Position numbers and translations under genes: made by a program
The notes under the pieces: generated by a model
Told to the model about the DNA's origin: nothing
Seen by the model: the letters and a program-made list of their open reading frames with translations, nothing else
The model's database searches: none
In this document: piece after piece, positions 1,623-51,262 of the stretch
Numbering within the stretch: the stretch's first letter is position 1
How the letters are laid out: the number at the start of each line of letters is the position of its first letter
Source of the DNA: Paracoccus fontiphilus
Lineage (GTDB): Bacteria > Pseudomonadota > Alphaproteobacteria > Rhodobacterales > Rhodobacteraceae
DNA length: 64,000 bases
Reading direction: 5' to 3'
Assembly: GCF_017356265.1 (NCBI RefSeq)
Contig: NZ_JAFNAW010000009.1
Coordinates: forward strand, 12,501 to 76,500

Positions 1623-1918
1623 CACATCCCGTAGAAGAAGCCCGCGTTGTTGGCCAGCGCGCGTTGCAGGATGATGATGACGATGAACAGGACCAGCGGC
1701 GCCAGATCCAGCCCGCCGGTATTGGGCAGCACGTTGCGGATCGGCTGGTAGATCGGCTCCAGCAGGCGGTTGAGGCCGTCCCACAGCTGCGCGACAAGCG
1801 GCTGGCGCAGGTTCAGCACCTGGAAGTTGATCAGCCAGGACATGATGATGTGGACGATCATCACGAACCACACCACTTGCAAGATCAGTTGCAAGGCCTC
1901 GTAAAGCGTTCCCATCAT
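1622..1918 (-). CDS. YggT family membrane protein
   Basis: A 98-residue inner-membrane protein of the YggT/Ycf19 family. Two hydrophobic segments (about residues 8-30 and 70-88) flank a conserved amphipathic stretch with LNRLLEPIYQPIRNVLP and a GGLDLAPLV turn, typical of the family. Relatives have been linked to osmotic tolerance, cell division and chloroplast membrane assembly, but no biochemical activity is established. It is the first gene of a minus-strand pair with recQ, sharing the TGATG junction. The start chosen has two adjacent ATG codons and either may be used. Confidence 0.88.
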
Positions 1919-5841: not shown

Positions 5842-6444
5842 ATGACCCGCCATCTGCCCGGCATCCTTGCCATGGCCATCATCGTCGTGGCCTCGAACAT
5901 CCTTGTGCAATTCACGGTCGGCAACTGGCTGACCTGGGGCGCCTTCACCTATCCCTTCGCCTTCTTGGTCACCGACGTGATGAACCGCGTCCACGGCGCG
6001 GGGGCCGCGCGCCGCGTGGTTCTGGCGGGCTTCGTCATCGGCGTGATCTGTTCGCTGATCGCGGCGGGCCTGGACAAGACCACCCTGCGAATCGCCATCG
6101 GCTCGGGCGTGGCCTTCTTTGTCGCGCAACTGGCCGACATCGCGATCTTCGACGCCTTCCGGCACCGCCGCTGGTGGGTCGCGCCCTTCGTGTCGTCCTT
6201 TGTCGGCTCGGCACTGGACACGGCACTGTTCTTCGGCATCGCCTTCGCCGCCGCCCTGCCCCATGACATCAACACGGGCTGGGCCAACGAGGCCGTTCCG
6301 CTGCTTGGTCACGGGCCGGTCACCGCCTTGTGGATTTCCTTGGCAACTGCCGACTGGGTGATCAAACTTGGTCTGGCGATACTGGCCCTTGTGCCTTTCC
6401 GCATCGCCGTCCGCAATTTGTTGCGGACCGAGCGCACAATCTGA
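5842..6444 (+). CDS. yhhQ: Queuosine precursor transporter YhhQ
   Basis: A 200-residue, roughly six-helix membrane protein of the VUT/YhhQ family, which imports queuosine precursors (preQ0/preQ1) for tRNA modification. Family features seen are the early segment GAFTYPFAFLVTDVMNRVHG and the later FRHRRWWVAPFVSSFVGSALDT, whose charged residues match conserved family positions. I start at the ATG at 5842 (GGAAAAG upstream) rather than 33 bases earlier. I saw no recognisable preQ1 riboswitch in the 92-base upstream gap, which holds only GC-rich short hairpins. Confidence 0.88.
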   Translation: MTRHLPGILAMAIIVVASNILVQFTVGNWLTWGAFTYPFAFLVTDVMNRVHGAGAARRVVLAGFVIGVICSLIAAGLDKTTLRIAIGSGVAFFVAQLADIAIFDAFRHRRWWVAPFVSSFVGSALDTALFFGIAFAAALPHDINTGWANEAVPLLGHGPVTALWISLATADWVIKLGLAILALVPFRIAVRNLLRTERTI

Positions 6445-6473
6445 TTGACACGCCCCCGATCTGTGGCACCCTT
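6445..6473 (+). promoter_or_regulatory. Candidate promoter for the small transcript
   Basis: A consensus -35 hexamer TTGACA at 6445-6450 directly abuts the yhhQ stop codon. A 17-base spacer leads to ACCCTT at 6468-6473, a weak -10. Alphaproteobacterial promoters often have a strong TTGAC and a poor -10, so this fits. It sits 24 bases ahead of the strong ribosome site of the 18-codon ORF. Confidence 0.45.
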
Positions 6474-6511
6474 TTCCTTACAACGGCAACTTTTTGAAAG
6501 GAGGTGGTCCA

Positions 6512-6568
6512 GTGTCTAGAGTGATATTGGAGAGAGGTGTCGGAACAGTCAGGGGGGCCGTGGCCTGA
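6512..6568 (+). CDS. 18-residue ORF with a maximal ribosome binding site
   Basis: A GTG-started ORF encoding VSRVILERGVGTVRGAVA (read Met first), ended by TGA. The AAAGGAGGT at 6497-6505 pairs fully with the 3' end of 16S rRNA and is 6 bases from the GTG. That is much stronger than any other start in the window. The peptide has two short basic-hydrophobic halves, each with an R-G-x-(V/G) element, and no membrane segment. I do not recognise it. Translation may serve regulation rather than a stable product. Confidence 0.45.
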   Translation: MSRVILERGVGTVRGAVA

Positions 6569-6648
6569 GGGCAGCCCCAAGGGTCGTAAACCCTGGTTGG
6601 GACCGGATAACCCGCCATCCCTAACCGGACCATCTCCGTGGATCTCGC

Positions 6649-6681
6649 GGGCCGCCTCATCTGGGCGGCCCGTTCCTTTTT
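6649..6681 (+). terminator. Rho-independent terminator of the small transcript
   Basis: Stem GGGCCGCC at 6649-6656 pairs with GGCGGCCC at 6664-6671 around a seven-base loop. It is followed by GTTCC and a five-T run at 6677-6681. It ends the plus-strand unit before the convergent lactate permease gene. Confidence 0.8.
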
Positions 6682-6708
6682 CGCCGGCGTGGCGGCGCGG
6701 AAAGGCAA

Positions 6709-6739: not shown

Positions 6740-8521
6740 TCACATTGCCCGGGCAGCCTGCCGCTGGCTGCGGTTGGCGCGCATGGCCCCGATGACCAGC
6801 AGCGCCCACAGGACGGCCGCGCCCCACCACAGGCCGCCCTGGATGAAGGCCATGCCGATCAGGCCCGCCTGCACCACATAGTAGCCCATGGTGATCAGCG
6901 TCTTGCGGATCAGGTCGCCCTCGCGATCCACCAGGCCCACCGTGGCCGAGGCCGCGACGACATTGTGGACGCAGATCATGTTGCCCGCCGCGCCCCCGAC
7001 CGCCTGCAGCGCCACCACAAGGGTGATGCCCATCAGATCCAGGCCGATGCCCTGCGCCGTCGAGAACTGGAACAGCGCGAACATCATGTTCGAGACCGTG
7101 TTCGACCCGGCGATGAACGCCCCCAGCGCACCGACGATCGGGGCGAACAGCGGCCAGGCCTCGCCCGTGGCGGCGGCCATGCCCTGCGCCAGCGTGATCG
7201 GCATCGAGGCGATCCCCTCGGAGCCGGAGTTGATGAAGACCTGCACCATCGGCACGGCCAGCAGCAGCGCCGGCGCGGCGGCGATCATGGTCCGGCCCGA
7301 AATCGCCCAGGCCCGGCCGTAATCCGACCCGCGCATCCGGAACAGCGCCACCGACACCAGCGAGGCGATGATCATGATCGTTCCCGGCGAATACAGGAAC
7401 TGGGCCGAGGCGTTGATTCCGGACCCGAACAGGTCGGTCAGGGCAAGCGTCGTGGACGGTCCGGTCAGCCAGGCCTTCAGCGGCGCAACCGTGCGCGTCA
7501 GGACCAGAAGCGCCGCGACGATGACATAGGGCATCCATGCGCTGAAAAGCGAGATTTCCCGCCCCTGCCGGGTGCCATGCGGCGCGATTTCCGCATCGGT
7601 ATCCTCGGGTCCGACGCTTCCCTGCCAGTCGCTGCCCCACTGGGCGCGTGGCGGAAAGTCGAAGCTGTCGGACGGCATGAACAACCCGGCCCGCGCCGCC
7701 GGGATCACGATCAGCAGGCCAAGAAGTCCGCCGACCAGCGACGGGAACTCGGGCCCCAGGAACCGCGCCACGGCCAGGTAAGGCAGGGTAAAGGCCACGC
7801 CCGCGAACAGCGCGAACTTCCAGGCCCTGAAGCCTTCGGCAAAGCTGCGGCTGCGCCCGAAGAACCGGGTCAGCATTCCGACCATCAGCAGCGGGATCAG
7901 AAAGCCGATCAGCGTGTGGATCAGCGCCACGTTCACGGCCACGACCGGCACGTACTGTTCCAGCGTCGCCGGGCCGATGGCCGCCGTCACCTCGGCGCTG
8001 TTCGACAGGCCGGTCTTGACGCCCACCAGCATGGGCGTGCCCACCGCGCCGAAGGACACGGGCGTGGACTGGATGATCAGCGTCACCATCACCGCCGCCA
8101 TGGCGGGAAAGCCGATCGCCACCAGCAGGGGCGCGGCAACAGCGGCGGGCGTGCCGAACCCGGACGCCCCCTCGATCATCGACCCGAACATCCAGGCAAT
8201 GATGATGGCCTGAATGCGGCGATCCGGGGAAATATCCGTGAAGCCGCGCCGGATGGCGCGAATGGCCCCGGATTCCTGCACCGTGTAAAGCAGCAGGATG
8301 GCGCCAAAGACGATGTAAAGCAAAGTGATCGCCGTGACGGCCCCGTTGACGGTGGCGCCGGCGATGCGGGCGAAGGGCGCGCCCCAGACCAGCCACGCCA
8401 GCAGCACCGTCACCAGATAGGCCGCCAGCATCGATAACTTGGCCGACTTGCGCAGGACCACCAGCAGCACGAACACCACCAGCACCGGCAACAAGGCGGC
8501 AAAGAACATCATTCCTTGCAT
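6740..8521 (-). CDS. lctP: L-lactate permease, LctP family
   Basis: A 593-residue proton-coupled L-lactate/glycolate importer with about 14 membrane segments. Family signatures seen are [21 protein letters not shown] in the first half and [18 protein letters not shown] and [18 protein letters not shown] in the second. The length is slightly above the usual 550-590, with a hydrophilic loop near the middle (around residues 300-345). No lactate dehydrogenase genes lie beside it. A large palindrome about 65 bases upstream suggests control by a GntR/FadR-type repressor. The product is secure; the exact carboxylate preference is inferred from the family. Confidence 0.93.
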
Positions 8522-19875: not shown

Positions 19876-19930
19876 CGCGGTCCCGCGTATGTCCGGCGGC
19901 GGGACACCCTTCCCCAACGAAGGGCTTTTA
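19876..19930 (+). promoter_or_regulatory. serC leader RNA motif with attenuator-like hairpin
   Basis: Two tandem hairpins precede serC. The first is GTCCCGC (19880-19886) with GCGGGAC (19899-19905) and a GTATGTCCGGCG loop. The second is CCCTTC (19907-19912) with GAAGGG (19919-19924), followed at once by CTTTT. This matches the alphaproteobacterial serC motif, a conserved element known upstream of serC-serA. The second hairpin with its U tract looks like an intrinsic terminator placed just before the serC ribosome site, so attenuation is likely. The ligand or factor is not established. Confidence 0.85.
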
Positions 19931-19945
19931 GCTGGAAGGCTAGTC

Positions 19946-21094
<1,149 letters not shown>

Positions 21095-50440: not shown

Positions 50441-51262
50441 TTGTTCAACCAGCGAAAGAACAGCACCATCATTCAGGCTGCGGGAACGACGCTGGGCCTG
50501 ATCTATCACCAGACCGTCTACAACCTGCGCAACGACCACCGGAACGCCATCGTGGGGCTGCTGCTGACCATCCTGCAGTCGGCGATCTTCCTGATGGCGT
50601 TCCTGATCATCTACCTGATCCTGGGGGTGCGCAATTCCCCGATCCGCGGCGACTTCACGCTGTACCTGTTGTCGGGCATCTTCATGTTCATGGTCCATGT
50701 CCAGGCCTCGGGCGCGGTGTCCGGCAGCCACTCGGTCTCGAACGGCCTGATCAAGCACGAGCCGCTGAGCCCGGCGATCCTGATCGCCGCGGCCGCCCTG
50801 GCGGTGCTGTATCGCCAGACGGTCAGCTGCATCGCGATCCTGTGGCTGTACCATGTCGTGATCGCGCCGGTCCATTTCGACTTCTGGCCGGGCTGCCTGG
50901 CGATGTACCTGCTGTCCTGGTTCTCGGGCGGCTGCATCGGGCTGGTCTTTTTGGGCATCCGGCCCTGGTCGCCGCGCGCGTCGAAGCTGATCACCACGAT
51001 CTTCCAGCGCGTCAACATGTTCGCCTCGGGCAAGATGTTCGTGGCCAACGTGCTGCCCAACATGCTGCTGCCCTGGTTCATCTGGAATCCCTTGTTCCAC
51101 ATCATCGACCAGCAGCGCGGCTTTTTGTTCATCAACTACACGCCCTTGAAGACCGACCCGATGTACGCCCTGTGGTTTTCGCTGGCCGCCATGATGATCG
51201 GGCTGCTGATCAACTTCACCACCCGCAAATACGAATCGCTCAGCTGGGGCGCGGCCGACTGA
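50441..51262 (+). CDS. Polysaccharide ABC export permease (KpsM/Wzm-like)
   Basis: A 273-residue ABC-2 type membrane protein with about six helices, of the capsule/O-antigen export class. It has an N-terminal amphipathic segment, the helix LLLTILQSAIFLMAFLIIYLIL and YLLSGIFMFMVHVQASGAV. I choose a TTG start at 50441 because AGGAGG (50425-50430) is 10 bases upstream and no ATG or GTG fits. No ATPase, KpsE or KpsD partner is adjacent, so those would be elsewhere. It may export the glycan of the neighbouring cluster. Confidence 0.8.
   Translation: MFNQRKNSTIIQAAGTTLGLIYHQTVYNLRNDHRNAIVGLLLTILQSAIFLMAFLIIYLILGVRNSPIRGDFTLYLLSGIFMFMVHVQASGAVSGSHSVSNGLIKHEPLSPAILIAAAALAVLYRQTVSCIAILWLYHVVIAPVHFDFWPGCLAMYLLSWFSGGCIGLVFLGIRPWSPRASKLITTIFQRVNMFASGKMFVANVLPNMLLPWFIWNPLFHIIDQQRGFLFINYTPLKTDPMYALWFSLAAMMIGLLINFTTRKYESLSWGAAD

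Follow-up and report, generated by a model that had tools for sequence, protein, structure and literature searches.

A conserved alphaproteobacterial small-RNA gene with a near-perfect ribosome site, an apparently translated 18-codon reading frame and a predicted anti-Shine-Dalgarno segment of its own

The locus and its ribosome site

Why should the strongest ribosome site in 64,000 nt of Paracoccus fontiphilus DNA (the whole stretch analyzed, here called the window) stand before an open reading frame (ORF) of only 18 codons, in the gap between yhhQ and lctP? A preliminary description of the sequence offered three options for the product: a tiny abundant protein, a dual-function small RNA (sRNA), or an RNA that titrates ribosomes. 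The upstream neighbor encodes a YhhQ-type queuosine precursor transporter (5842..6444, + strand; PF02592, E 1.1e-25; TIGR00697 above cut-off), and the convergent downstream gene is the L-lactate permease gene lctP (6740..8521, - strand; PF02652, TIGR00795). A predicted -35 element, TTGACA (6445..6450, +), abuts the yhhQ stop codon (6442-6444), just where it had first been placed. TTGAC lies 48 to 52 nt 5' of the Shine-Dalgarno (SD) sequence in 81 of 108 Rhodobacterales-type loci and was found anywhere in shuffled upstream sequences in 7%. CACCCT at 6468-6473 is its putative -10 partner; because this partner is poor, a consensus promoter scan of 2,801 bases did not list the TTGACA/CACCCT pair, and its sole promoter-like match was at 6494-6522. 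The predicted transcript of about 200 nt would extend from 6481 to 6681 (+), its 5' end being placed from the promoter and its 3' end from an intrinsic terminator (6647..6681, +) with an 11-pair stem and a T-rich tail. The terminator scan recovered this feature of the preliminary description as a hairpin at 6647-6673 followed by TCCTTTTT, with 5 such sites in 2,801 bases versus 1.8 expected as background. Folding of the whole RNA was in modest excess over shuffled sequences (z -1.75; 10 of 200 shuffles folded equally well).

The anti-16S nonamer, AAAGGAGGT (6497-6505, +), is followed by the six-base spacer GGTCCA and a GTG at 6512; direct reading thus confirmed the GTG ORF of 18 codons with an anti-16S site six bases before it (VSRVILERGVGTVRGAVA; 6512..6568, +; TGA stop), a frame supported by the evolution of its stop codon and of Ser2, described below. 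Pairing with the 16S tail runs for 17 nt through GAAAGGAGGUGGUCCAG (6496..6512, +), with one G-U pair, and spans the SD and the G of the start codon, so that the "full pairing" claimed at the outset was, if anything, understated. Scored against a 16S tail from other genera of the family, which may not be the window genome's own, the duplex of the site reaches -29.1 kcal/mol and ranks first among 4,823 ATG, GTG and TTG positions on both strands; the best site outside the 18-codon ORF reaches -18.7 kcal/mol, and the window indeed holds no other site so strong. A 25-nt stretch that includes the anti-16S site gives -32.2 kcal/mol.

A search for the 16S end with up to three mismatches recovered none in 16 genomes (nine of the same genus, the window's included, and seven of other genera). 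Tails were recovered in 5 of 35 genomes, all of them GGATCACC, with genome G567 among them. We considered whether the A/G variant within the anti-16S stretch had coevolved with the tail and rejected this: in G567, whose element carries the G variant, the 16S tail is the ordinary GGATCACC, so that the variant makes a G-U pair and not a compensated pair.

Taken alone, the nonamer is weak evidence, with 0.13 occurrences expected per window by chance and an occurrence in 12 of 100 window shuffles; AAAGGAGGTGNTCCA occurs once in the whole genome. These frequencies, with a fold that is only mildly unusual, would suit a functionless SD-like sequence that arose by chance in an intergenic gap, but conservation across genomes and the pattern of stop codons refute that reading, to which we attach practically no probability. 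It is conservation that makes the site real.

Conservation and evolution of the reading frame

The 251-base region has a match in 36 of 61 genomes, one apiece, namely in 36 of the 37 genomes of the same genus (the window's own and 35 of the 36 others); no match was found in 24 genomes of other families. Shorter probes reach much further. The exact 20-mer AAAGGAGGTGRTCCAGTGTC is present in 19 of 385 genomes of the class (18 genera), in single copy in each, and its reversed control has zero matches in the same 385 genomes. An 18-mer with at most one mismatch is found in 146 of 198 genomes of the family, nearly all of distinct genera, a few of the matches, AAAGGCGGTGGTCCAGTG for example, being to sites other than this element. 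The 20-mer marks at least 119 loci in a named collection; among the matches listed, at least 54 belong to Rhodobacterales, at least 41 to Hyphomicrobiales, at least 3 each to Caulobacterales and Acetobacterales, at least 2 to Rhodospirillales and at least 1 to Sphingomonadales, and at least 15 are coarsely placed or lie outside the class. On this comparative evidence the element is a conserved and old alphaproteobacterial gene for a candidate small RNA, spread across several orders. A comparison of the ORF and hairpins in related genomes, proposed in the preliminary description, was among the analyses run, and the finding survived it.

A probe free of the SD, a 21-mer inside the ORF, matched 117 of the 198 family genomes, 108 of which are also in the 18-mer match list for the SD. 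Among the other nine, seven keep AAAGGAGGTG with an altered extension (GTGCTCTA, GTGCTTCA or GTGCTCTT), one lacks a single base, which shifts the site by one base, and in the last the SD and the ORF are both disrupted. The AAAGGAGGTG core is thus nearly invariant even at loci found through the ORF alone, and a strict need for the 17-nt pairing is rejected; full pairing seems dispensable in those seven genomes provided that their 16S tail is of the ordinary kind. At one locus (L254, genome G575) the SD core (AAAGGGTGTG) and the ORF (GTG TGA) are both broken, as if decaying jointly.

The comparisons that follow draw on 187 distinct loci, which remained after removal of loci near a sequence end and of duplicates over the first 120 nt. 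A peptide pattern over residues 1 to 13 picked out 108 of these as Rhodobacterales-type; this choice is blind to codon 19 and misses loci that are broken earlier or carry another peptide (e.g., L188, L189 and L093). Of the 108, 104 have a stop at codon 19 (TGA in 52, TAG in 32 and TAA in 20), and TGG is found there in none of them, though both variable bases take both values. Changes were counted on a YhhQ protein tree, made independently of the RNA sequences, for the 100 of the 108 loci that have yhhQ, 97 of which have a stop at codon 19. At least 33 switches of stop type took place among the 97 loci, with 21 changes at the second base and 20 at the third. The first base of the stop codon, T, underwent zero changes in 100 loci, and the bases of codons 17 and 18 underwent 13 to 33.

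Within the peptide the pattern is mixed. Ser2 shows 22 codon changes and 0 residue changes, with all four TCN codons in use, and Gly11 shows 19 codon changes and 4 residue changes; variation is scant at codons 7 and 12. A core, LERGVGT, is kept fairly well, and third positions too are fixed over much of the conserved core, a sign of constraint on the nucleotides. At codons 4, 5 and most of 13 to 18, residue changes nearly equal codon changes (50 codon and 43 residue changes at codon 16; 41 to 45 residue changes at each of codons 16 to 18).

Other orders have different peptides that are recognizable among themselves. In a Bradyrhizobium type (15 loci; VS..KRCHLAGIAR), codon 15 is TAG in six, TAA in four, TGA in four and a sense codon in one, and codons 6 to 10, 13 and 14 never vary. 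A VSH type (46 loci; VSHCH...TW..AS) ends in TGA in 30 loci, TAA in 9 and TAG in 7; since ORF length varies in this type and an ORF by definition closes with a stop, its stops are not usable as evidence. ORF length is 14 to 26 residues in all but two of the 187 loci, and the peptides of different orders are dissimilar. The switching of stop types, the pattern at Ser2 and codon 15 of the Bradyrhizobium type together make a strong comparative case for translation of the 18-codon ORF and for selection on its end. This comparative evidence for translation is what our analysis adds. Start and stop appear to be preserved more than the peptide between them.

Pairing of the ribosome site with the 3' part of the RNA

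Three helices are predicted in Rhodobacterales from an alignment of 72 sequences, out of the 73 left after thinning of the 108 loci at 93% identity (L194 was left out). One of them joins the SD, GGAGGUG (6500-6506), to an anti-SD segment in the 3' untranslated part, CAUCUCC (6631..6637, +); with CAYCUCC or variants on the 3' side, 97.7% of cells are paired over the 72 sequences. A second helix is a hairpin at the start codon between UCCA (6508..6511, +) and UGGA within the ORF (6528..6531, +). It is paired in 72 of 72 sequences (100%), three of its four pairs being invariant, and has one compensatory change, in L250; by eye, it is kept in five of the seven genomes with an altered extension, with one pair lost in each of L251 and L256. 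The third helix, UCGG of codons 10 and 11 (6540..6543, +) with CCGG inside the conserved CUAACCGG (6625..6628, +), is 95.1% paired, and three of its four pairs show a two-sided change in at least one sequence. Pairing over the whole structure, 97.6% in the alignment as it stands, fell to 35-63% when the partners were slid; when the 3' letters were redistributed it still reached 97.2%, given the strong conservation of the columns. The helix that masks the SD is without two-sided covariation because the SD side is fixed and variation falls on the 3' side only. The alignment shows complementarity, in Rhodobacterales, between the SD and a conserved, putative anti-SD near the 3' end of the RNA itself.

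Folding of single loci with RNAfold, with the 3' end set by a rough terminator rule and single letters downstream of position 18 shuffled five times per locus as the control, gave a mean SD pairing probability of 0.92 versus 0.66 for shuffled sequences in the 106 loci whose ORF has 18 codons, almost all of Rhodobacterales. Exceptions among these are L012 (0.19; shortened by the terminator rule), L193 (0.18) and L073 (0.02). The 81 loci with a shorter or longer ORF, almost all outside Rhodobacterales, gave 0.705 versus 0.705, and masking of the SD as a rule for the whole class is rejected on this result.

Proposed mode of action and alternatives

Our preferred reading, to which we would give a probability of roughly 45%, is that the gene has its own promoter and terminator and specifies a self-masking small RNA that is translated; engagement by ribosomes would matter more to it than the peptide, and it would exist in a ribosome-open and a self-masked form, the RNA being the output. 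Ribosomes would load on the SD while the RNA is being made and, in reading the 18 codons, would disrupt all three helices by which the SD and the ORF are held to the 3' part. Once translation ceased, the SD would be covered by the anti-SD segment near the 3' end, so that the RNA would alternate between an open form with a ribosome on it and a closed form in which it masks its own SD. The useful output would most likely be the RNA, the open form freeing the CUAACCGG-CAUCUCC strand, and the peptide may be largely a by-product. In other orders the closing helix is another one (CAUUGUC/GACAAUG in the Rfam model); it joins the first codons to the stretch preceding the terminator and would presumably be opened by the ribosome in like manner. 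What seems to be selected is the act and the extent of translation and not the peptide. The dual-function sRNA of the preliminary description is the best fit among its three options, and it stands insofar as the locus appears to encode a conserved, structured RNA whose ORF is, by comparative evidence, translated.

Should the 18-residue peptide instead be the product, the RNA would be a very well translated mRNA whose folds tune expression. Comparative support for translation favors this view, as do the excess of codon over residue changes at Ser2 and Gly11, the near lack of variation at codons 7 and 12 and the recognizable alternative peptide of other orders, and it would also explain the fairly conserved LERGVGT. 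Yet at codons 4 and 5 and through most of 13 to 18 residue changes almost keep pace with codon changes, sequence and length (14 to 26 residues) differ between orders, and the conserved core is largely fixed at third positions too; the residue drift and the dissimilarity of the peptides across orders make the peptide an unlikely main product, and the idea of a tiny abundant protein is weakened. The idea that the RNA titrates ribosomes is weakened as well. Here the long anti-16S stretch would hold free 30S subunits, and the ORF would merely release trapped ribosomes. The 17-nt pairing and the -32.2 kcal/mol of the 25-nt stretch would suit such a decoy, the AAAGGAGGTG core is nearly invariant even where the ORF alone led to the locus, and loci whose ORF is not of 18 codons show no preferential masking of the site. 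In Rhodobacterales, however, the site is masked by the 3' segment, 7 of the 117 ORF-probed genomes alter the extension and still keep the core, and a pure decoy needs no stop codon fixed at one position; we regard it as distinctly unlikely. A further proposal is a class-wide switch that senses free 30S subunits, in which the 16S tail and the imitation of that tail in the RNA would compete for the SD, a ribosome loaded on the small ORF would free the imitation, the freed imitation would block the SDs of other mRNAs, and the ORF would serve to provide an occupied state of fixed length and not a peptide. If this were true, the RNA would be a feedback brake on translation; we consider it a long shot.

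The neighboring genes bring in one more possibility. At 101 of the 187 distinct loci a YhhQ-like frame precedes the element on its strand, at a median of 58 nt from the SD. The ribosome-rescue hydrolase gene arfB follows downstream on the same strand at 58 of the 187 (51 by a count of flanking frames), starting 178 to 368 nt after the SD; its identity was checked for one copy (NF006718, 188.9 bits against a cut-off of 100), and all arfB-linked loci in a 520-nt scan are of the Rhodobacterales type or L188. With arfB behind the terminator in many Rhodobacterales, the order ORF-terminator-gene resembles that of an attenuator, and the element might be a leader in which translation of the ORF decides on readthrough into arfB. 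In the window, however, arfB is absent and the next gene, lctP, lies on the opposite strand; at 19 of the 58 loci, moreover, a TANNNT box stands exactly 12 or 13 nt before the arfB start, which suggests that in at least those 19 loci arfB may have its own promoter and a leaderless mRNA. An attenuator of arfB was set aside for these two reasons and is, in our judgment, very improbable; the linkage may reflect a shared ribosome theme. Among these 58 loci, of which L104, L148 and L059 are Rhodobacterales examples, an SD-like 4-mer precedes arfB at only 11, which likewise suggests a leaderless arfB mRNA. Ten non-Rhodobacterales loci (L069, L072, L080, L101 and six more) share the same flanking frame within 2.5 kb, and some of the downstream frames at these loci we take, by eye, to resemble the YaiI/YqxD family.

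Relation to known small RNAs

At gathering cut-offs, an Rfam search of the window found no SRP, 6S, tmRNA or RNase P RNA, which agrees with what had been judged from the letters; its only matches lie elsewhere, a serC leader (RF00517, 65.7 bits; 19897-19948, +) and the Cis2_sRNA of Ruegeria (RF02645, 60.9 bits against a cut-off of 50; 51005-51157, -). A tRNA called by ARAGORN at 1741-1832 (+), with an unreadable two-base anticodon, is probably spurious. A low-stringency search of the region gave as its best match RF01867 (CC2171, an sRNA of Caulobacter), at 32.1 bits and E 3.1e-5 and in register at the 5' end. The original Caulobacter report is that of Landt (2008). In a search of the whole window genome the site is the only match to RF01867 at E 0.001 or better (E 8e-5), although its 32.1 bits fall short of the gathering threshold of 75. 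Matches at E 0.001 or better occur in 61 of 289 genomes of the class, 9 of them above cut-off, and among 14 control genomes in Caulobacter alone. When 17 loci found through the 20-mer were scanned with RF01867, seven scored above cut-off (five Hyphomicrobiales, one Caulobacterales and one Acetobacterales) and ten, including three Rhodobacterales and three Bradyrhizobium, below it.

The likeness to CC2171 extends over several features. The 5' segment GAAAGGAGGUGRUCCAGUGUCU at the start of the model is also found at the window site, and two alignments of the seven above-threshold loci show the same 5' start; a short ORF begins at that GUG, a GC-rich terminator hairpin closes the 3' end, and most genomes with a match have a single copy. 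The closing helix of CC2171, CAUUGUC/GACAAUG, is absent at the window site, where the alignment marks non-standard pairs, and the predicted closing helix of Rhodobacterales differs from it in joining the SD to the 3' anti-SD. Since the Rhodobacterales branch scores below the Rfam threshold and is without the closing helix of CC2171, the predicted gene in the window is a distant relative of RF01867 and not a member, and the relation is real. Rfam classes CC2171 as an sRNA gene, whereas the ORFs of the relatives studied here look translated, in two alphaproteobacterial groups at the least (Rhodobacterales and the Bradyrhizobium type).

An open-access literature search returned no functional study of this RNA; in the parts of the texts it retrieved, RF01867 appears only as an entry in a table of Rfam 15 (PMC11701678) and in one of Mesorhizobium sRNAs (PMC5596092). 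Other matches to "CC2171" use the string in an unrelated sense, judged by title. A conserved and very abundant sRNA of Paracoccus denitrificans, "Intergenic 60," is mentioned in the part retrieved of another report (PMC5107571), and its position is not matched to the present locus.

The rnTrpL and Spot 42 RNAs have known targets. Both resemble the present RNA in carrying a tiny ORF on a small RNA: according to the portion consulted of one account, rnTrpL of Sinorhizobium, which encodes peTrpL, and Spot 42, which encodes a protein of 15 residues, are small RNAs with a translated ORF of 14 to 15 codons, and rnTrpL differs in being leaderless and derived from the trpE leader (PMC10117765). The peptide at the present locus, in contrast to those of rnTrpL and Spot 42, drifts over much of its length, and what the locus would offer beside these systems is a defined case of one RNA that has a near-perfect SD together with an anti-SD of its own.
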